A DNA stretch of 64,000 nucleotides from Blautia liquoris (GTDB lineage: Bacteria; Bacillota; Clostridia; Lachnospirales; Lachnospiraceae): assembly GCF_015159595.1 (NCBI RefSeq), contig NZ_CP063304.1, positions 2,542,001-2,606,000 of the forward strand. Direction: 5' to 3'. How positions within the stretch are numbered: position 1 is the first letter of the stretch; each line of letters opens with the position of its first letter. This document shows, one piece after another, positions 25,512 through 35,070 of the stretch. A program made the position numbers and the translations under genes. A model generated the notes under the pieces. The model was not told the DNA's origin. It saw only the letters and a list, made by a program, of their open reading frames with translations, and ran no database searches.

Positions 25512-25551
25512 AAGGGGCTCACAGCTTATTCAATCAGGCTGCAAGTCCCTT
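25512..25551. terminator. Bidirectional hairpin between sodA and the LytTR gene
   Basis: An imperfect inverted repeat (AAGGGGCTCACAGCTT with AGGCTGCAAGTCCCTT) lies in the 46-bp gap between the two convergent genes. It is plausible as a shared terminator but has an internal mismatch and no long T-run. Confidence 0.4.
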
Positions 25552-26306
25552 CACTCATCCTTAATATCTTCAGAATCATAAACATGAAAGCGTGTGATAT
25601 ACTCTGCAAATTCTCTTTTCAGGGAATCCATATAAGTCACGCCGACCGGAACAAGCTCCCCGGTCTTTAAAATTAGGTTATGGCGACAAAACTTTGCAAT
25701 ATAGGGTAAATGCACAAGGAAAGACCGGTGAGACCGTACGAAATCATCTCCACGAAGCTTCACTTCTAATTGTTCCATCCTTCCATAGAATTTTGCCGTT
25801 TTTTCATCACCGTAATGTATGGTAACACGTCTTTGCCAGATTTCAAAATAGGAAATCTGACGCATTGGGATTACACCAGTCTCACCGTCGAATTCAAAGG
25901 TAAACAGTCGGTCTTCCGACAATGCAGCCAGCTTTGCCGCCCTAAGAAAAGTAGACTCGAATTTTTTATAACTCGTGGCCCCTTTTAACAGATACCGAAC
26001 CGCATTCACATCGAAGGCGTCATATACATATTCTTCACTGATTGTCAAAAAAACAATCTGAGCCTTGCATCCGTAGTTCCGCATTTGATGCGCAACTTCC
26101 ATTCCATTCATTCCATTCATCATGATATCTAAATAGAGAATATCAATTTGATCCGGTGTTTCGGCGTAGTGAAAAAGTAAGGATTCCCCACTTTCAAAGC
26201 AGGAAATCATAACCTCCAATTGGTTTTTCTCAGCAATCCCGGAGATGAGTTTTGCACACTTCCGGACGGAATCTCTGTCATCGTCACATAGAATTATCTT
26301 TAACAT
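25551..26306 (-). CDS. LytTR-type response regulator
   Basis: This 251-residue regulator has a receiver domain (acidic pocket CDDD near residue 8; phosphoacceptor Asp in ILYLDIMMNGMNG, about residue 58) and a C-terminal LytTR DNA-binding domain (about 145-240; FVRSHRSFLVHLPYIAKF) as in AgrA, ComE and VirR. No histidine kinase is adjacent, so it is an orphan in this window. It lies directly downstream of the sortase genes. Its own promoter and the pilus promoter carry matching 9-12-9 direct repeats typical of LytTR binding sites, so it probably controls itself and the pilus operon. Confidence 0.93.
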   Translation of the reverse strand: MLKIILCDDDRDSVRKCAKLISGIAEKNQLEVMISCFESGESLLFHYAETPDQIDILYLDIMMNGMNGMEVAHQMRNYGCKAQIVFLTISEEYVYDAFDVNAVRYLLKGATSYKKFESTFLRAAKLAALSEDRLFTFEFDGETGVIPMRQISYFEIWQRRVTIHYGDEKTAKFYGRMEQLEVKLRGDDFVRSHRSFLVHLPYIAKFCRHNLILKTGELVPVGVTYMDSLKREFAEYITRFHVYDSEDIKDE

Positions 26307-26525: not shown

Positions 26526-27182
26526 TCAAACCCGTTCACCAGTCACAATCAGGCGTTTTTTCTCTCCGCTAACCAGATAAGTACAAGTCAGTAACGTAAC
26601 CAGATCCTTATCTTCTTGTATCTGCAGTTTTCCGGTATCCGTCTCATCGATGACTTCTTTTTTGTTCACCTTATAGGAAAGAGTTCCCTCTAAATTATGG
26701 ATGTAAAATACATCCCCAAAATCTAAATGACTAATTTTACTAAACCATTCATGGTTTGCAAAGCCGGAATGTCCCGCCAGAACACAATGGGTTCCAATTC
26801 CGCCCATGGGAAGTGATGTCCCTTGAATGACCGCAATCCCACGCCCTAAGTTCTCTTCTGTCGCGCCAAGGTATATGGGCAGTTCCATCTTCAGGGAAGG
26901 CAGTTCAAGCACTGCAAAAATATCATTTGACTTGTCCCACTGCAGATCCTGTTGGAAGTCTTTTTTTGTATTTTCTTCGAACTCTTTTTCTATCTTCTGT
27001 ATATCTCGAATTGCCTCTTTTTTCTCGTCTTCTGGCATTGTCGTAACAGATTCCCGATAACTGGAAACCAGTATACTGTCATTTTGTGCGCTCAGATATT
27101 TTGCAATCTGCGGATAGCAAAACATACCAATCCCCAATATCAGCAGGCTCCAGCCGATCATTCGTTGTCTCTTCTTTTTCAT
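26526..27182 (-). CDS. Sortase, pilus-associated (third sortase gene)
   Basis: This 218-residue transpeptidase has an N-terminal membrane anchor (about residues 8-28) and a sortase barrel with catalytic His in LAGHSGFANHEWF (about 138), Cys in TLLTCTY (about 199) and Arg in RLIVTGER. It lacks the C-terminal membrane segment and the DPF/DPW lid of typical pilin polymerases, so it may be the housekeeping-like enzyme that attaches the finished pilus or the tip to the wall; that role is inferred. The start overlaps the previous sortase stop by 4 bp. Confidence 0.92.
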   Translation of the reverse strand: MKKKRQRMIGWSLLILGIGMFCYPQIAKYLSAQNDSILVSSYRESVTTMPEDEKKEAIRDIQKIEKEFEENTKKDFQQDLQWDKSNDIFAVLELPSLKMELPIYLGATEENLGRGIAVIQGTSLPMGGIGTHCVLAGHSGFANHEWFSKISHLDFGDVFYIHNLEGTLSYKVNKKEVIDETDTGKLQIQEDKDLVTLLTCTYLVSGEKKRLIVTGERV

Positions 27183-28021
27183 CTGCTGTCATCTTCCTTA
27201 CTCTTTCTGCGTCTTTTTCTTACCACCAACAGCAGAAGCAATCCACCGCCAACAATTACTCCCACAAGAAGCTTGTCCTGATTCATTGCCCCTGATTCCG
27301 TAGAGATCCGGTCAAGTTCTGTGCTTGACGGTTCGTCCACGCGTCTGGCATGTACCAGAAGTCGTTCGTTGTTTATCATATACGGATGGCATGTCAACAG
27401 CGTCATAAGATCCCAGCCCGGTTCAATATGAAGCTTGTCAATATCCATTGGTTTAATCACCTCCGTGCTATAAACCTCATAATAGAGTTTTTCATCGAGG
27501 CTCTTAACCCAGAAAACATCTCCTTTTTTCAGCTTATCGAGATCTCTGAATAACTTAGCCTCAGGCAGGCCACGATGTCCGGTCAGTACGCAATGGGAAG
27601 ATTCGCCGCCCACCGGCATAGACGTTCCCTCCATCCAGCCGACGCCGACTTGCAAAATCGCTTCACTCATGCCGTCATAAATCGGTAAAAAGACATCAAT
27701 CTGAGGAATTTCAATATAGGCGAGAATCTCTCCGATATTTAAAAAGCTCTGATTGTTTTGCGTCGTCTCCCCGGAGAAGGGATCTTGAATCGTTAGATTG
27801 GAATCGGAAAGCTGCTGATTATATTTTCTCGCCGCTTGTAGCTTTTTCTCCTTCTCTTCCTCAGAGAGTTTTTTTAATTCTTCTTCATAATTCGATATTA
27901 CGACCGTTTGATTTTTCTGGTTAATTGCATTGGAAATTACAGGATACAGTACAACCGATGCTCCTGCAATAAAAAACAAAACTAAAAATATGCGCCATAC
28001 TTTATTTCCAATTTTCTTCAT
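27179..28021 (-). CDS. Class C sortase (pilin polymerase candidate)
   Basis: This 280-residue sortase has membrane segments at both ends (about residues 10-30 and 250-270) and a basic C-terminus, as in SrtC enzymes that link pilins. Catalytic His is in LTGHRGLPEAKLF, Cys in TLLTCHPYMINNERL, and Arg in LLVHARRVDE. The motif DPF (in LTIQDPFSGE, about residue 80) matches the lid that covers the active site in class C sortases. It is the only one of the three with this motif and is therefore the best polymerase candidate. It overlaps the preceding sortase gene by 20 bp. Confidence 0.94.
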   Translation of the reverse strand: MKKIGNKVWRIFLVLFFIAGASVVLYPVISNAINQKNQTVVISNYEEELKKLSEEEKEKKLQAARKYNQQLSDSNLTIQDPFSGETTQNNQSFLNIGEILAYIEIPQIDVFLPIYDGMSEAILQVGVGWMEGTSMPVGGESSHCVLTGHRGLPEAKLFRDLDKLKKGDVFWVKSLDEKLYYEVYSTEVIKPMDIDKLHIEPGWDLMTLLTCHPYMINNERLLVHARRVDEPSSTELDRISTESGAMNQDKLLVGVIVGGGLLLLLVVRKRRRKSKEDDSR

Positions 28022-28871
28022 AGGTTCTTTTCTTTACTCTTGTTTGAATGAATTTTATAAAAAGTATCAGAATTGCAAAAAAAACGATGACAAACAGATA
28101 TTCCTGATACTTGACGAGTGGCGAAATCTTTCTGTCCTGACTTTTTGCTTTTACGCCTTCGTTATATTCGGTTCGGTGGGCGCGAACCAGCATTCGATGG
28201 CTGTTAATCATATAGGGATCACAGGTGATCAAGGTTACCAGATCACGGCCTTCTTCAATCTCCAGCGCTGAGATGTCCGTTGGCAAAACCACGCGGACAC
28301 TCTCTACTTCGTATGCCAGTGTCTCTTGAGCGGCATGTAAGAAAAACACATCTTTGATCTCCATCTGATCCAGATCGCGAAACATCCTTGCCGATGGGAG
28401 TCCGCGGTGTGCACTGATTACACAGTGCGTGCTATCCCCCCCGACCGGAAGTGAAGTTTTCGGCATCAGCCCTGCCCCCCGACTCAGGATCTCGTCGGAT
28501 TCTCCATAGTAAATCGGCAATTCTATATCAATCCTGGGAATCTCAACATATCCCAGTACTTCACCAATATTTTTCATTTCAATGTTGACACGTTCCATGG
28601 CCTCCTTCTCCCGCGGCGTAATTGTTTCCGATCTGCTGCCTTCAAGATCTTTCACATACGCATTATAGCGTACCGCTTCTTCCCGCTGTCTTTGCCTTTC
28701 CCCTTCCTCCATCCGATCCATCTTCTCGTCATAATTCGAAATCACCTGAGTCTGACTTCTGTGGTTTATATTGCTGGAAATCAACGGATAGAGAAAAGTC
28801 AGCAGTCCAATAAAAAAGACAACCAGAAAAATTGTTCTTCCACACAGAATATGTAATATTCTTTTTTTCAT
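28002..28871 (-). CDS. Class C sortase
   Basis: This 289-residue enzyme has N- and C-terminal membrane segments and the sortase catalytic set: His in ISAHRGLPSARMF, Cys in TLITCDPYMINSHRM, and Arg in LVRAHRTEY. The lid region (about 75-95) has no DPF/DPW motif. It is the first of three overlapping sortase genes and follows the backbone pilin across a 147-bp gap with two strong hairpins. It probably attaches one of the two surface proteins to the pilus. Confidence 0.94.
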   Translation of the reverse strand: MKKRILHILCGRTIFLVVFFIGLLTFLYPLISSNINHRSQTQVISNYDEKMDRMEEGERQRQREEAVRYNAYVKDLEGSRSETITPREKEAMERVNIEMKNIGEVLGYVEIPRIDIELPIYYGESDEILSRGAGLMPKTSLPVGGDSTHCVISAHRGLPSARMFRDLDQMEIKDVFFLHAAQETLAYEVESVRVVLPTDISALEIEEGRDLVTLITCDPYMINSHRMLVRAHRTEYNEGVKAKSQDRKISPLVKYQEYLFVIVFFAILILFIKFIQTRVKKRTYEENWK

Positions 28872-29018: not shown

Positions 29019-30884
29019 TTAATCTGCGTTTGTACGCTTTCCTTTTTTCAGGAAGTACGCCGCCACAATCATCATCGTAATACCTCCGACGGTAAGGATG
29101 AGCGATCCGATTCCGCCGGTCTGAGGAATCTGAAGCCCTTTGTTATTCTCAACTTTTATAAAGATTTCCCCATTATAACTTTCCTTGGTAATTGAGAAGG
29201 ATTCCGGAGTTTTTAACAGATTATACTGTGAACCGTTCAGGCTTGGTGCCTTTGTCTCTACCAGCCAATAGTATCCCCCCTTTAAACCTTTAATTTCAAA
29301 AACACCATCACTTTGGGATTTCATGACAACATCCGCACCGACAACAGGGGTTACAAATTTCGATGTGTCATTTGCATCAATCAAAGCCTGTGTCCATTTT
29401 AACAAATCAGTACCCGTTGCATTTTTTGAAATCTTAAACTCAGCGCCGGGCAGCATAATCGTATTATCCTTGCCATCTACCTTTTTAAACTGTGCGCCAC
29501 CGGTCCAGACCGTTGGAATTGTCGGCGGCTCCACCGGACCCTGGGGATCGTCCTCTGTGTCCGTTCCTGTGTTGTTTGTAAAGTTCAGCTTTGCATCATT
29601 CGGAATCTCCGAACCCATAACCGCTGTATCATTAATGCTGGTTGCATAGGAAATTGTAATCTTCTGCCCTTCAAAATCCTTGATCGAAGCAGGGTTAAAC
29701 GCAACCGTCAAGACATTGGATGCATAGTTTACCGTATAATGTGTTCCCGCTGTTAAGACGGTGCCGTCAGCCGCTTTCACCTGAAATCCGTCTGCTGAAG
29801 CAGTTCCCTTAAAATCAAGACGAGTATCAATCGTATCTGTGACATTGAACTTTGTATAAGTTTCTATATCTTTTGGTACGCTTACCTTAATCGACCAGTT
29901 AACGGTCTCACCGACCTGGGAGGTCCCGCCGGCGTCTTCTTCTTTTTCAATCGATGGTCTTGCTTCATTCTTGATTTTAATCAAAGGACCATCTTGAAAT
30001 GTATAATTGGGACCATTCGTTGCTGTAATCTGACCTGCGGACACTTCAAAGGACACAGGTCTGGTATCCAGTAAATAGCCATTTGGTGCCACAGTCTCCA
30101 CCAACTGGTATTTTCCCGCCGAGATATTTTGCAGCGTCAGTCCGGCATCCGTAATTGTGATGGATCCGTTATTGCCAAGAGAAGTGTCCTTTACATAGCC
30201 AGGGGCAAGCGGATTTCCGCCCTCATCCACTCTATCTTCGACCCATTTCCGGATTTCAAATGTTGCATCACCGATGGGGTTATTCTCCGTGTTCACTTTT
30301 AAAAGCTCCAGATCCGGGGAATCCACCACGTTCTTAGGATATACATGGAGTGCCTTAGCACCAATTCCAAAATTCTCTGTACCATTTGCCTTTGTAACCG
30401 GAAGTGACAGCATGAACGGAACCCCTAAATATTCTGTTACGTTCAGCTCATCCGCATTTTGCTCAGCGAATATATACGTTCCTTCTGATAGAAAATGTGC
30501 TGTTGTCATACCGTTCGAATCCGTCGGGTCAAGCTCTCCGGTAAGTCCTCCAACCAGACCTGGGTTGGCATCAAAGTAACTTTTTATTGCATCATAGTTT
30601 GTAAGTGCACCAATAGCATCCAATTCTGCATCGGTAGCTGTGTCTCTTATCTGCCAAAATTCAAAGACAACCCCTTCCAGCCCTTCGGCACCGGCCAGAT
30701 TGGTTCCGGTAAAATCAGTGATTTCCTCGCCGTCATGATCTTCCAAGGAGGTTCCTTGTGCTACCTTCATCTTGTGAATGACCACGTCTGTAAGTGGTAC
30801 CTCTGGGTCAGCATATGCCGGAATCACTGCACTTAAGGCCACCACCAAAGCACATAACAACCCCGTTATTTTCTTCTTGAACAT
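29019..30884 (-). CDS. Major pilus backbone protein with CnaB domains and IPQTG sorting signal
   Basis: This 621-residue surface protein is the likely polymerised pilin. It has a Sec signal peptide (cleavage near AYA-DPE, residue 25), an N-terminal domain, a pilin motif VYPK with the linking Lys at 184, a CnaB domain ending in the E-box YQLVETVAPNGYLL, a middle domain (GETVNWSIKVSVPKD) as in fimbrial isopeptide-forming proteins, and a third domain with YWLVETKAP. The C-terminal signal is IPQTG (about residue 586), a hydrophobic helix and a basic tail. AGGAGG fixes the ATG at 30884. It follows the tip protein gene by 54 bp and precedes three sortases. Confidence 0.94.
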   Translation of the reverse strand: MFKKKITGLLCALVVALSAVIPAYADPEVPLTDVVIHKMKVAQGTSLEDHDGEEITDFTGTNLAGAEGLEGVVFEFWQIRDTATDAELDAIGALTNYDAIKSYFDANPGLVGGLTGELDPTDSNGMTTAHFLSEGTYIFAEQNADELNVTEYLGVPFMLSLPVTKANGTENFGIGAKALHVYPKNVVDSPDLELLKVNTENNPIGDATFEIRKWVEDRVDEGGNPLAPGYVKDTSLGNNGSITITDAGLTLQNISAGKYQLVETVAPNGYLLDTRPVSFEVSAGQITATNGPNYTFQDGPLIKIKNEARPSIEKEEDAGGTSQVGETVNWSIKVSVPKDIETYTKFNVTDTIDTRLDFKGTASADGFQVKAADGTVLTAGTHYTVNYASNVLTVAFNPASIKDFEGQKITISYATSINDTAVMGSEIPNDAKLNFTNNTGTDTEDDPQGPVEPPTIPTVWTGGAQFKKVDGKDNTIMLPGAEFKISKNATGTDLLKWTQALIDANDTSKFVTPVVGADVVMKSQSDGVFEIKGLKGGYYWLVETKAPSLNGSQYNLLKTPESFSITKESYNGEIFIKVENNKGLQIPQTGGIGSLILTVGGITMMIVAAYFLKKGKRTNAD

Positions 30885-30938
30885 AACTTTTTCCTCCTGT
30901 TTTTTATTCTGTAGCATTTTTATAAAAAATGACATGTG

Positions 30939-33900
30939 TCAATTTCTATCCGTAGATTTTTTTTTGCGTCGTTTGGCTATGATAGCCAGCAGCATCAGTC
31001 CCCCACCGATAAACAACAGGTAATATGTCCCGTGTCCTCCGGCAGCTGGCAGCTTAGCGGATCTCTTATTCTCAATCTCATATCCGCAGGTATAGGCCCC
31101 AGCTTCCTGTCCGGTCAATGTAATCGGCTGCAGGGTCACACTTCCGAGAGACACTGTAACGTTTCCTTCTGAATCGAATTCCAATATTACATCTTTGGTT
31201 AACAGATTATACCCGGAAGGTGCTTTTGTCTCCGTTAGCTTATATGTTCCGGGCTTCTGCCATGGAATATCGAAGCTGCCCTGTGCATTTGTTTCCAGGA
31301 GCAGACTGCTTACCTCATCACCATCCGAATCGAGTACCTTTTCCGAATCCTCCGCATTGCTAAGTGTAAATCTGGCCTTATCCGCCGTTATCGGCGTCCC
31401 GTCAGAGTCTACCTTCAACATCCGAATCGGTTTGATGGCAAGCGTATTCGTAAGCTCCATCCCAATAATTCCCGAAACGTCTGTCTTATAGCTTACCTCT
31501 GTTTCGTAGCCGGGTACCGCCCGTTCCTGCACTTCATACGTATACTCATACCCCTTATGCAGGCCGAAATCGAAGTTCCATTCTTGGTCTTCATCCGGTG
31601 TTACCTGTATGGTCTCAATATCTTGAATAAAATCTCCTTTAGCACCCGTCTGCGTATTCCGTTCATACTGCTTCAGTGTCAGCTCAATCGCAGAGGGACG
31701 CAGTCCCAACAGGTTGTCCATATCTGACCATAGCTTTTCGCCTTTGGGATTGATCCAGTAATCCAGATCGCGTTCATACAGGAAGGTATGGGTATAACTG
31801 ATCCTATCGGCTTTATCCAACTCTACACTGATTTCCTTATCCTGTGGCTGCCCGGAAGAAAGAGTCTCCCTGAACTTCCAATAAGGAGAAATTCCTGCCG
31901 GAAGTGGCTGACTGGCTCCTTCATAGCTCTTAATCTCTACCGTATCATAGCCAAATGTGGGCTCCGCAATGACTGCTCCCGACACATCCAAGGGGATTCC
32001 ATACAAATCTTTCTGGGAAATACGCACATACTGACTGTCATCATTACTCTTGCGGACATTGTCGGAAGTGTCTGCATACAGCTCTTCATTTGGCGGCGAT
32101 GCAGTTTCCCCTTCCCCATTATGTAAGGCATTGGCGAGTGTGTAAAAGTTATCTGTCACAAAAGATGCCCCAACGTAGTCCGTTCTTTCATACTCCCGCA
32201 CGCTGGCAGCATTCTGTGAATAGCGGAGATTCTCACCCCAGAGAATCAGCCTTCCATTATCCGTTACATCTACTGTAAATGTTTCGTCTCTCGCCTCTGT
32301 ACCGGATACCAGTTCCCCGCTCAGCAATTCTCCCTTTTGTGTATAAGCAGGATTGTTATACAGCGCCATAAATTCACTGTCCGTCAGTTCACCGACATCG
32401 ATATTGAAATCATTGTTTCCGCTGTCATACGGAATGAATACATATTTTAAACTGGCTACATTTGAGTACAGGTCTGCCAGCAAGCTGTCACTATGGTATG
32501 AGGCCGGAAGATGGACAGTAACTGTCGCGGTTTCCATACTGTCATCGTCATCGGTTTTATATACTTTGCGCTGCGGTTTCTCTGCATAGATATCAATCAT
32601 ATCGATGGTAGGAGCTCCCCGCATATACATGACCTCATAGGTATACCGGTCATACAGACCCGAAGTTGTACTGCCGTTTTGATCGTATTTGTTCTGATAG
32701 TCCCATCCCCAGGCAATCGCACCGGAACCATCATTTCCCCATTTGAAGAGGTTGCCATCCGCATCGATAAACGCATATGCGGAAAGGCTGCAGTCCATCT
32801 GGGCAATATAGGGCACTTCCTTAAACGCCAGATCAATCCACAGCTTTTCATCCGGATCCGTCGCCGGCATGGCTTCGATCCCAGGGGCAATCACCTTTCC
32901 GCTGCTGTCCACCTTATAGTATTTACCATTGGTCAATCCACTCACACCGTCGGCCGAGGCTGCACGGACACACTTAATCCGTTCTCCGTCAACACTAAGC
33001 ACTGTTCCGTCAGCATCCTTCAGCATGTATTTTTCGTCATAAATCGTCGGATGTAAATCATTCAGAGCGTTAATACCATAGCCGAATCTGGTGGTAGGCC
33101 GAATATCTCCTCCCAAATAGACCGGAAGCTTTGCGCTGGAATCATAGATCTGTGTATCTCCATCTCCGATAATCTTTGGTACCTGCTGTGCTGCAGCGGA
33201 TCGAATCAGCTCATCGTTAGAATCCTCATAACCTCCTTCACGGCCAAATCCGAAATAGTATCCGGAGCCCCAGCCCCAGGGTCTTCCATGCTGGTCGATA
33301 AAATAGCAGACCATTTCACTGGCAGTTACCACTGTGGCTTTCGGCTGATAACCATATTCCGCCACCTCCGCGCTGTCAAGAACAATCTTTTGCGGTGCCA
33401 TCTTGATTACAGCACTGTTGGCAACGATGCCATCGCCATAAGTACGTCCCCACTCCCATGCGTCGCCATTTTCATCAGCCACAACTGTGCGGTCATGGCC
33501 TCCATCCTGCAGTCGTGCATAGGAGGTATCCACATCTATAATCCGTGGCATTCCGCTCTCCGAACGGTCTATCATCACAAAATTATGGTTAGATAATACA
33601 GTATTGCCAAATCCCTGTTCGCCATTGGCATTTGTACCACAGGTCCATAAATCCCCTTTATCGTCCAGAATCTTGGCCGAGACCTCTCCGATAACCACTT
33701 TCACAATCTTTCTCGTTCCATCTGAAAAATCCGGATGAATCGTAATCTTGGTGGGAGTACCCACATTTGAGATACCTCCAGTACCCAATTTTCCACTTGG
33801 ATAGTTCGACCCCCATACCCAAAGCTCGTCATTTTCATCAAGTGCTGCGCAGGCACCTTGTCCCAGATATGCATCGCTTGGGAAAATATGCTTAATCCTG

Positions 33901-34721
33901 GGCAGTCCGGGAACCTGTTGCGGTGTATAATTATGTGTACTATAAGAATTATTCCCCATTTGATAAGTCGAACCATCTCCCCATGCATAAACGATGCCAT
34001 CATCACTTAAGGCGTATCGGGTTTCATAACTGGATCCGATTTCGGTAATTGTTATATTATTATTTACAAAGTAGGGAATCCGCTTCATGCCACCATAGTA
34101 ATTCGGCGCCGCAATGACACCGGTAACATTTTCAACCGTTCCTCCGATTCCCAATTCTCCATAGAGATTGTATCCAAACGACCAAATCTTCCCGGCCGCA
34201 TCAAGGGCCATTCCTCCCATACAGCCGTTTGAAAACTGCTTGAATTTTACCAAAGAAATCTGACCATAGCGGTTTGCATCTGCAGCACTTTCGCCTGGGG
34301 TATTTCCGGCAAACGGTGCTATGGGCATCAGTTCCTCCTGTTTGACAGGAAGTTGCTCTTCCTGTTCTTCATCTTGTTCTTCTTTCGTTTCTTCTGTTTT
34401 TGTTTCTTCTGTTTTTGTTTCTTTTGTTTCTTCCTTTATAGATTCTTCCTCAGAAGTTTCTGCACTTTGCTTTCCTTTTTCGCTGCTGTTTTGACTCTCC
34501 TGCACGCCGTCGTGTTCTTTAGTTCCCGATTCATAGTTCTCCTGTGCTAAATTCTGTTCTTCTGTTTCCGACGATTCAATGTCAGTATCACTCGTCACCT
34601 CTGCCGGCATATCACTCACTTCTCCGGCACGAACCGGTTCCTGAACTCCCGTGTATAGCAGTAGAAAAATAAGCAAAAAACATAAAATACGCTTTCTTTT
34701 TTGGCTTTTTCGTGTTTTCAT
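30939..34721 (-). CDS. Pilus tip adhesin with RCC1-type beta-propeller and CnaB domains
   Basis: This 1260-residue secreted protein has a signal peptide (residues 1-32) and a Glu/Thr/Lys-rich low-complexity stalk (about 45-135). Seven RCC1-like repeats follow (about 155-690; cores such as GKIWSFGYN, GIVYAWGDG, DELWVWGSN, GDLWTCGTN, GDAWEWGRT, GRPWGWGSG and GNLFKWGND), with an insertion of about 150 residues between the sixth and seventh. Seven repeats fit one closed seven-bladed propeller. The C-terminal part has CnaB-type domains (YEVQERAVPGYE; KLTETKAPSGY), then sorting signal LPAAG (about 1224), a helix and a basic tail. It is the first gene of the pilus operon, the usual place for the tip protein. 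The ligand is unknown. Confidence 0.9.
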   Translation of the reverse strand: MKTRKSQKRKRILCFLLIFLLLYTGVQEPVRAGEVSDMPAEVTSDTDIESSETEEQNLAQENYESGTKEHDGVQESQNSSEKGKQSAETSEEESIKEETKETKTEETKTEETKEEQDEEQEEQLPVKQEELMPIAPFAGNTPGESAADANRYGQISLVKFKQFSNGCMGGMALDAAGKIWSFGYNLYGELGIGGTVENVTGVIAAPNYYGGMKRIPYFVNNNITITEIGSSYETRYALSDDGIVYAWGDGSTYQMGNNSYSTHNYTPQQVPGLPRIKHIFPSDAYLGQGACAALDENDELWVWGSNYPSGKLGTGGISNVGTPTKITIHPDFSDGTRKIVKVVIGEVSAKILDDKGDLWTCGTNANGEQGFGNTVLSNHNFVMIDRSESGMPRIIDVDTSYARLQDGGHDRTVVADENGDAWEWGRTYGDGIVANSAVIKMAPQKIVLDSAEVAEYGYQPKATVVTASEMVCYFIDQHGRPWGWGSGYYFGFGREGGYEDSNDELIRSAAAQQVPKIIGDGDTQIYDSSAKLPVYLGGDIRPTTRFGYGINALNDLHPTIYDEKYMLKDADGTVLSVDGERIKCVRAASADGVSGLTNGKYYKVDSSGKVIAPGIEAMPATDPDEKLWIDLAFKEVPYIAQMDCSLSAYAFIDADGNLFKWGNDGSGAIAWGWDYQNKYDQNGSTTSGLYDRYTYEVMYMRGAPTIDMIDIYAEKPQRKVYKTDDDDSMETATVTVHLPASYHSDSLLADLYSNVASLKYVFIPYDSGNNDFNIDVGELTDSEFMALYNNPAYTQKGELLSGELVSGTEARDETFTVDVTDNGRLILWGENLRYSQNAASVREYERTDYVGASFVTDNFYTLANALHNGEGETASPPNEELYADTSDNVRKSNDDSQYVRISQKDLYGIPLDVSGAVIAEPTFGYDTVEIKSYEGASQPLPAGISPYWKFRETLSSGQPQDKEISVELDKADRISYTHTFLYERDLDYWINPKGEKLWSDMDNLLGLRPSAIELTLKQYERNTQTGAKGDFIQDIETIQVTPDEDQEWNFDFGLHKGYEYTYEVQERAVPGYETEVSYKTDVSGIIGMELTNTLAIKPIRMLKVDSDGTPITADKARFTLSNAEDSEKVLDSDGDEVSSLLLETNAQGSFDIPWQKPGTYKLTETKAPSGYNLLTKDVILEFDSEGNVTVSLGSVTLQPITLTGQEAGAYTCGYEIENKRSAKLPAAGGHGTYYLLFIGGGLMLLAIIAKRRKKKSTDRN

Positions 34722-34781: not shown

Positions 34782-34818
34782 ACCTGAATATAAGTGTATA
34801 AAACACTTTTATTCAGGT
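34782..34818. promoter_or_regulatory. 15-bp inverted repeat in the pilus mRNA leader
   Basis: ACCTGAATATAAGTG (34782-34796) and CACTTTTATTCAGGT (34804-34818) form a stem with one mismatch and a 7-nt loop. It lies downstream of the predicted -10 and 61 bp before the tip-protein start. It could be an RNA hairpin or an operator for another regulator. Confidence 0.55.
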
Positions 34819-34950: not shown

Positions 34951-34985
34951 TGCAAAAAGGAACTGCGATTGCAGTTCCTTTTTGC
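34951..34985 (-). terminator. Terminator of the nucleoside operon
   Basis: A long inverted repeat (GCAAAAAGGAACTGC with GCAGTTCC and a T-run) with a 4-nt loop lies 86 bp past the last gene of the operon. The A/T-rich stem base supplies a T-tract on both strands. It also insulates the pilus promoter. Confidence 0.85.
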
Positions 34986-35070
34986 AGATCATTTATTCTT
35001 TTGTTCTATAATTATTTTAAAAACTATTTTTTCACCTTAATCACTGCTAATCTCAGTCCTTCTTATGCTT

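Follow-up and report, generated by a model that had tools for sequence, protein, structure and literature searches.

Several well-studied sortase pili bind by VWA heads. Such heads are found in tip adhesins of the RrgA, SpaC and EbpA type, which resemble in operon position, size, CnaB/SpaA stalk, sorting signal and class C sortases a protein encoded on a stretch of 64,000 nucleotides of the Blautia liquoris genome (contig NZ_CP063304.1), hereafter called the window. In contrast to these adhesins, the window protein possesses as its head an RCC1 propeller with an insertion and a signal of the LPxAG type, and a Pfam search of the head disclosed no VWA match. In sortase-pilus assembly as it is generally understood, the sorting signal of the tip pilin is cleaved and attached by class C sortases to a lysine in the VYPK motif of the shaft subunit next to it; tip pilins, by which assembly is started, seldom have VYPK (PMC5536039).

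The architecture, the fold and the operon of the window locus were computed. The gene of the putative tip protein and the parts of its product outside the head are as follows (window coordinates):

30939-34721, minus strand: RCC1-propeller protein, putative pilus tip, 1260 amino acids plus stop, open reading frame call with N-terminal signal peptide, MKTRKSQKRKRILCFLLIFLLLYTGVQEPVRA
31443-31745, minus strand: CnaB domain, residues 993-1093 (Pfam Cna_B, 1e-9)
31152-31427, minus strand: SpaA prealbumin-like domain, residues 1099-1190 (Pfam SpaA, 1e-9)
30942-31052, minus strand: LPAAGGHG sorting signal, transmembrane stretch and basic tail, residues 1224-1260

The boundaries of the uninterrupted reading frame lie exactly at 30939 and 34721 on the minus strand. 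A typical signal peptide at the N-terminus is followed by an acidic low-complexity linker (about residues 34-140). Pfam assigned the RCC1-like domain PF25390 to residues 158-495 with an E-value of 7e-37 and 128 bits, below the family's own cut-off of 150; PF00415 (RCC1 repeats, 50.1 bits against a cut-off of 21.7) and PF13540 (37.2 against 22) exceeded theirs. E-values as low as those of the domains of this protein place the matches far beyond chance. Sequence matches in the PDB were HERC2, RCC1, UVR8 and RPGR for the head and pilins for the tail.

Within the stalk, K996, E1066 and N1092 of the CnaB domain are invariant in three homologues and correspond to the isopeptide triad pattern; the same holds for K1103, E1164 and N1218, assigned to the SpaA domain. 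Judged by these residues, both domains probably carry stabilising isopeptide bonds. The sorting signal begins with LPAAG at residue 1224 and ends with the tail KRRKKK. It is an LPxAG variant, non-canonical when compared with LPXTG, and scored over the cut-off of TIGR01167 and slightly below that of the Pfam anchor family. The reading frame, the Pfam matches and the predicted structure bear out the initial annotation in its description of an RCC1-like propeller and an LPAAG signal. Its claim of CnaB stalk domains stood in so far as a CnaB-type stalk is present; this stalk consists of one CnaB and one SpaA domain and not of a run of several CnaB domains.

On the minus strand the tip gene is followed by the shaft gene, three class C sortase genes and a LytTR gene:

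29019-30935, minus strand: shaft (major) pilin of the SpaH/EbpB family, 638 residues (NF033902, 1e-59)
28002-28871, minus strand: class C sortase 1, TLITC (NF033745, 3e-75, 252.5 bits)
27179-28021, minus strand: class C sortase 2, TLLTC and DPF (NF033745, 7e-78, 261.3 bits)
26526-27182, minus strand: class C sortase 3, short, without C-terminal membrane segment (NF033745, 1e-55, 188.8 bits)
25551-26306, minus strand: LytTR response regulator, also present next to the orthologous operon of genome G204
34951-34986: perfect 16-bp hairpin with T-rich tail, terminator-like, in the gap that separates the tip gene from the YitT-like gene upstream
34782-34818: inverted repeat of 16 bp (94%) in the probable leader, 61 bp ahead of the start of the tip gene

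All three sortases exceeded the curated NCBIfam cut-off of NF033745, which is 160 bits. The shaft pilin, whose listed reading frame is separated from the tip stop codon by 3 bp, contains the VYPKN pilin motif (Y199), the E-box VETVAPNGY and the sorting signal IPQTGGIG; YPK is absent from the tip protein. With the tip gene directly upstream of a VYPKN shaft and three class C sortases, the linkage to a pilus that had been assumed from the start proved to be strong. The terminator-like hairpin precedes the tip gene by 230 bp, a position suggesting that this gene is the first of its own transcript, and the LytTR gene is a possible regulator of the operon. Slipped-strand or invertible control of the tip was also considered. 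There is a 15-bp repeat (34383-34429) within the part of the tip gene that encodes its N-terminus, and upstream there are two short hairpins; they gave no clear sign of phase variation. Elsewhere in the same genome (contig 2404000-2423000, L266, 7301-15544) there is a second pilus-type locus without RCC1, which encodes two sortases, a shaft pilin and a tip-like protein of 1567 amino acids that carries LPGSG and a weakly matched adhesive domain of the pectate-lyase-like kind (PF20585).

We consider it quite probable that the locus specifies a two-component pilus, assembled by sortases and tipped by an adhesin with an RCC1 propeller. The tip position is inferred from the sorting and pilin signals and from established pilus assembly: since the protein has no VYPK-type motif, only the capping position is available to it. 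The tip protein would be secreted through its signal peptide, and a class C sortase would cleave LPAAG and link the protein to the VYPKN lysine of an initial shaft subunit. Others would then be added below, so that the tip, lacking VYPK, caps the fibre, while the neck described below and the CnaB and SpaA domains would hold the propeller outward.

The structure of the head was predicted with AlphaFold2, using six family members. Three parts were delimited:

32610-34265, minus strand: seven-bladed RCC1-type propeller, residues 153-704 (AlphaFold2 model)
32811-33263, minus strand: insertion between blades 6 and 7, residues 487-637 (about 150 residues)
32151-32609, minus strand: neck, a beta-sandwich domain without Pfam family, residues about 705-857 (pLDDT about 70-86 over the core)

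The head model gave a mean pLDDT of 68.6 and a pTM of 0.71, with values mostly between 75 and 96 in blades 1-6. In the predicted structure these blades occupy residues of about 159-486 and blade 7 residues of about 638-705, which agrees with the seven RCC1-type repeats and the large insertion between the sixth and the seventh that had been read from the sequence. Comparisons by Foldseek and VIA-align matched the model to RCC1-type propellers, best to UVR8 (Z 39.2, rmsd 2.5 Å, 354 residues aligned). As the alignment spans model residues of about 14-565, i.e., the complete ring, the predicted head forms a closed seven-bladed propeller that can be superposed on UVR8 all round. An open ring, which the initial annotation had named as an outcome that would tell against it, was not obtained. 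The RCC1-like domains of UVR8, RPGR and HERC2 reached Z values of 34-39, followed by BLIP-II (Z 21.7, rmsd 2.7, 245 aligned) and, lower still, Photorhabdus lectins (Z 17-19). Prediction of residues 858-990 was poor, and the model of the whole stalk was weak (pLDDT 52.5). For its last domain (SpaA), RrgA was the best match in fold (Z 11.3, rmsd 2.8, 104 aligned), with many pilins coming next.

The insertion, predicted with low to medium pLDDT and thus confident only in part, carries the conserved motifs DGDTQ and HPT-x-YD-x-KY; no Pfam family was matched by residues 487-637. Conservation of the head is highest in blade 6, at both edges of the insertion, in blade 7 and in the segment that follows (663-705), where mean identity to the window protein is 0.52-0.68, compared with 0.33-0.48 in blades 1-5. 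The middle of the insertion (residues 570-619) is variable among homologues. Because the insertion was modelled with partial confidence, the candidate binding face rests on this conservation, which indirectly supports the notion that the insertion belongs to it. By means of a conserved surface made up of blade 6, the insertion, blade 7 and the following segment, the head may bind a ligand, by which the cell would attach to a surface, a partner cell or a polymer. Candidate ligands include glycans, mucin, plant polymers and partner cells. The conservation around blades 6 and 7 and the insertion could instead reflect a contact between head and neck and no ligand site. It is also conceivable that the propeller acts not as an adhesin but as an inhibitor, a sequestering domain or a part of an enzyme complex, as BLIP-II, a secreted bacterial RCC1-type propeller inhibiting beta-lactamases, is among the structural matches and the conserved motifs of the insertion are polar and aromatic. 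We regard this as very improbable, since the insertion has no enzyme family match and presentation on a pilus end or a long repeat stalk would fit reach and attachment better.

Attempts were also made to identify homologues of the tip. Family-level searches comprised 200 and 397 Lachnospiraceae genomes sampled evenly from a larger group. Within these samples the full-length tip occurred only in the window genome, all other hits being separate RCC1 or stalk matches, and a check of six genomes of the genus likewise revealed the tip gene only there. A genome of the same genus (G204, 58% complete) has a contig of 5.7 kb with genes for a shaft of 89% identity, for three sortases and for the LytTR regulator. 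Since this contig starts inside the shaft gene, any tip gene of G204 would lie outside the visible sequence. RCC1 proteins were detected in 46 of 250 Lachnospiraceae genomes, mostly in unrelated contexts. None of 39 RCC1 loci inspected in this family combined RCC1 with a sorting signal in a pilus operon; at one of them (L071) there was only a weak sortase-like neighbour. In other Lachnospiraceae the tip slots are occupied by VWA or other heads on similar stalks. The order-level search yielded one close propeller, in a Clostridiales genome (G380), whose protein stops right after the propeller without a sorting signal and whose 18-kb contig contains no sortase.

Single-sequence queries of genome_contigs and viral_contigs with the window protein gave no match. 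An alignment query of genome_contigs found the loci L194 and L195, and the same query of viral_contigs none. The scan of genome_contigs, for which two short patterns were used, missed the homologues in genomes G1125, G1080, G1265 and G1255 described below, and its sensitivity is therefore limited. Among the matches listed, plasmid and phage records contained only generic RCC1 proteins with less than 60% identity and a coverage of at most about 38% of the query.

L194 belongs to the Eggerthellaceae genome Nt197P3bin52 and has two tip-shaft pairs in tandem ahead of three class C sortases; Nt197 denotes the termite Neocapritermes taracua (PMC7024585). A search of 138 Eggerthellaceae genomes added G1125 (L264) and G1080 (L265), each with an RCC1 tip, a shaft and three sortases. 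The full-length homologues of these three loci exhibit 44-46% identity to the window protein and occupy the same operon slot. The homologue survey proposed for gut Firmicutes did not find the pilus form chiefly there but mainly in Actinomycetota, another phylum. In G1125, a second shaft pilin is encoded after the three sortases of the RCC1 pilus operon (L264, 1115-3085). As assembled, the G1080 tip has its N-terminal part in a different frame (L265, 9000-10020), due to a mutation or an assembly error.

A class-level search of 197 Coriobacteriia genomes added G1265 and G1255, in which the same head and neck occur without a visible pilus. The G1265 protein (L279, 2671 residues) consists of the same head, neck and CnaB domain, then 11 DUF11 repeats and LPKTG, and no sortase was found in the 20 kb fetched around its gene; the G1255 protein is truncated by the contig end just past the CnaB domain. 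That this head recurs on a stalk of DUF11 repeats suggests that it would act as a distal binding part whatever its anchor. At the end of another Coriobacteriia contig (L282, 7034-8230) an RCC1 protein outside the tip family has a wall anchor of the VPTTGD type, and such anchoring of RCC1 proteins to the wall may be widespread in Coriobacteriia. Head relatives without a visible pilus, as in L279, would also suit a non-pilus adhesin whose LPAAG is fixed straight to peptidoglycan by the housekeeping sortase, as would the deviation of LPAAG from canonical LPXTG and the LPXTG-anchored RCC1 proteins that bee bifidobacteria possess (PMC4449606). Such an arrangement is unlikely given that the order of tip, shaft and three sortases is kept in two phyla, with a tandem duplication of the tip-shaft pair, that the end of the stalk is homologous to pilins and pilus adhesins, and that some other operons likewise combine an LPxAG-type tip with an LPxTG shaft.

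For the preferred pilus arrangement, four operons were compared. In all of them the tips end with LPxAG and the shafts with [IP]PxTG, with GxG after both; perhaps different sortases process the two signals. The shafts contain YPKN and the tips lack VYPKN, the Egg1B tip having two YPK triplets, one in the insertion and one in the stalk. In a tree of 49 sortases, window sortases 1 and 3 fell into starred clades with their positional counterparts from Eggerthellaceae. The nearest rows of sortase 2 outside the genus were also the Eggerthellaceae counterparts, on a branch that is open. This grouping by position indicates that the sortases of these operons have a common history. The shaft tree is in agreement, as it grouped the window and G204 with G1080 (support 94/93). 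Of the heads compared, those of the two Coriobacteriia proteins are the closest to the window head (63 and 61% identity), and the clade of these heads was supported by 96/95 with G380 as outgroup and by 98/96 without it. A conflict between the head tree and the sortase tree appeared only with the distant G380 root (AU p 0.0005) and was gone without G380, so that it was discarded. The patchy distribution suggests that a transfer between phyla took place.

The paralogues of L194 show 69% identity in the head, 80% in the neck and 89% at the end. That they vary most in the head is consistent with heads diversifying for binding, and it speaks against a head that is mainly a structural cap starting assembly without a specific ligand. 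It is true that assembly begins with the tip pilin in the general model (PMC5536039), but a conserved head of 550 residues is unneeded for a cap, nor would a cap require reuse on a DUF11 stalk, and we give this explanation hardly any credence. As to the adhesin, we lean, by a narrow preference, towards an RCC1 head whose site at blades 6-7 and the insertion makes it a mobile adhesive module, shared between phyla, directed at one ligand type and representing a new class of adhesin heads. In this case its mountings would be sortase pili in Lachnospiraceae and Eggerthellaceae, the stalk of 11 DUF11 repeats with LPKTG in Coriobacteriia, and an unanchored secreted form in Clostridiales. By these natural swaps between pilus, DUF11 stalk and secreted form, the part that would bind can be told apart from the part that anchors, and the termite-gut actinobacterium, with its tip duplicates in tandem, provides a pair for testing the divergence of head specificity.

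A literature search of open papers did not reveal a described sortase pilus with an RCC1 or beta-propeller head, which is consistent with the earlier remark that RCC1 repeats in pilus tips are little described. One lead to RCC1 and sortase (PMC8013792) was rejected, as 'rCC1' there means recombinant CEACAM1. Among pilus heads, a propeller of the RCC1 type bearing a conserved insertion would constitute a further class, and a compact recombinant domain could serve to search directly for its ligand.

UVR8, RPGR and HERC2 possess the closed seven-bladed fold predicted for the window head but are eukaryotic intracellular proteins, their kinship with it being one of fold only. BLIP-II (PDB 1jtd), a protein-binding propeller of the RCC1 type that is secreted by bacteria, is similar in fold, but is a single secreted inhibitor of 273 residues without anchor, pilus or the insertion of the window head. 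The RCC1 proteins of honeybee Bifidobacterium are wall-anchored with RCC1 domains of about seven repeats, like the window tip, but contain two to four such domains per protein and Flg_new repeats and form large tandem families; the passages on them describe no sortase pilus (PMC4449606), whereas in the window tip a single propeller with a conserved insertion is combined with a CnaB/SpaA stalk and encoded in a pilus operon. PilX2 of Saccharibacteria TM7x, a putative minor pilin, has a seven-bladed RCC1 propeller like the window tip and is set apart by its description as part of a type IV pilus (PMC12206443), the putative pilus here being sortase-assembled; the two are probably separate inventions of a similar device. 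Judged by the literature covered, the RCC1 propeller is probably a head type that is new among described sortase pili, mounted on a known machine.
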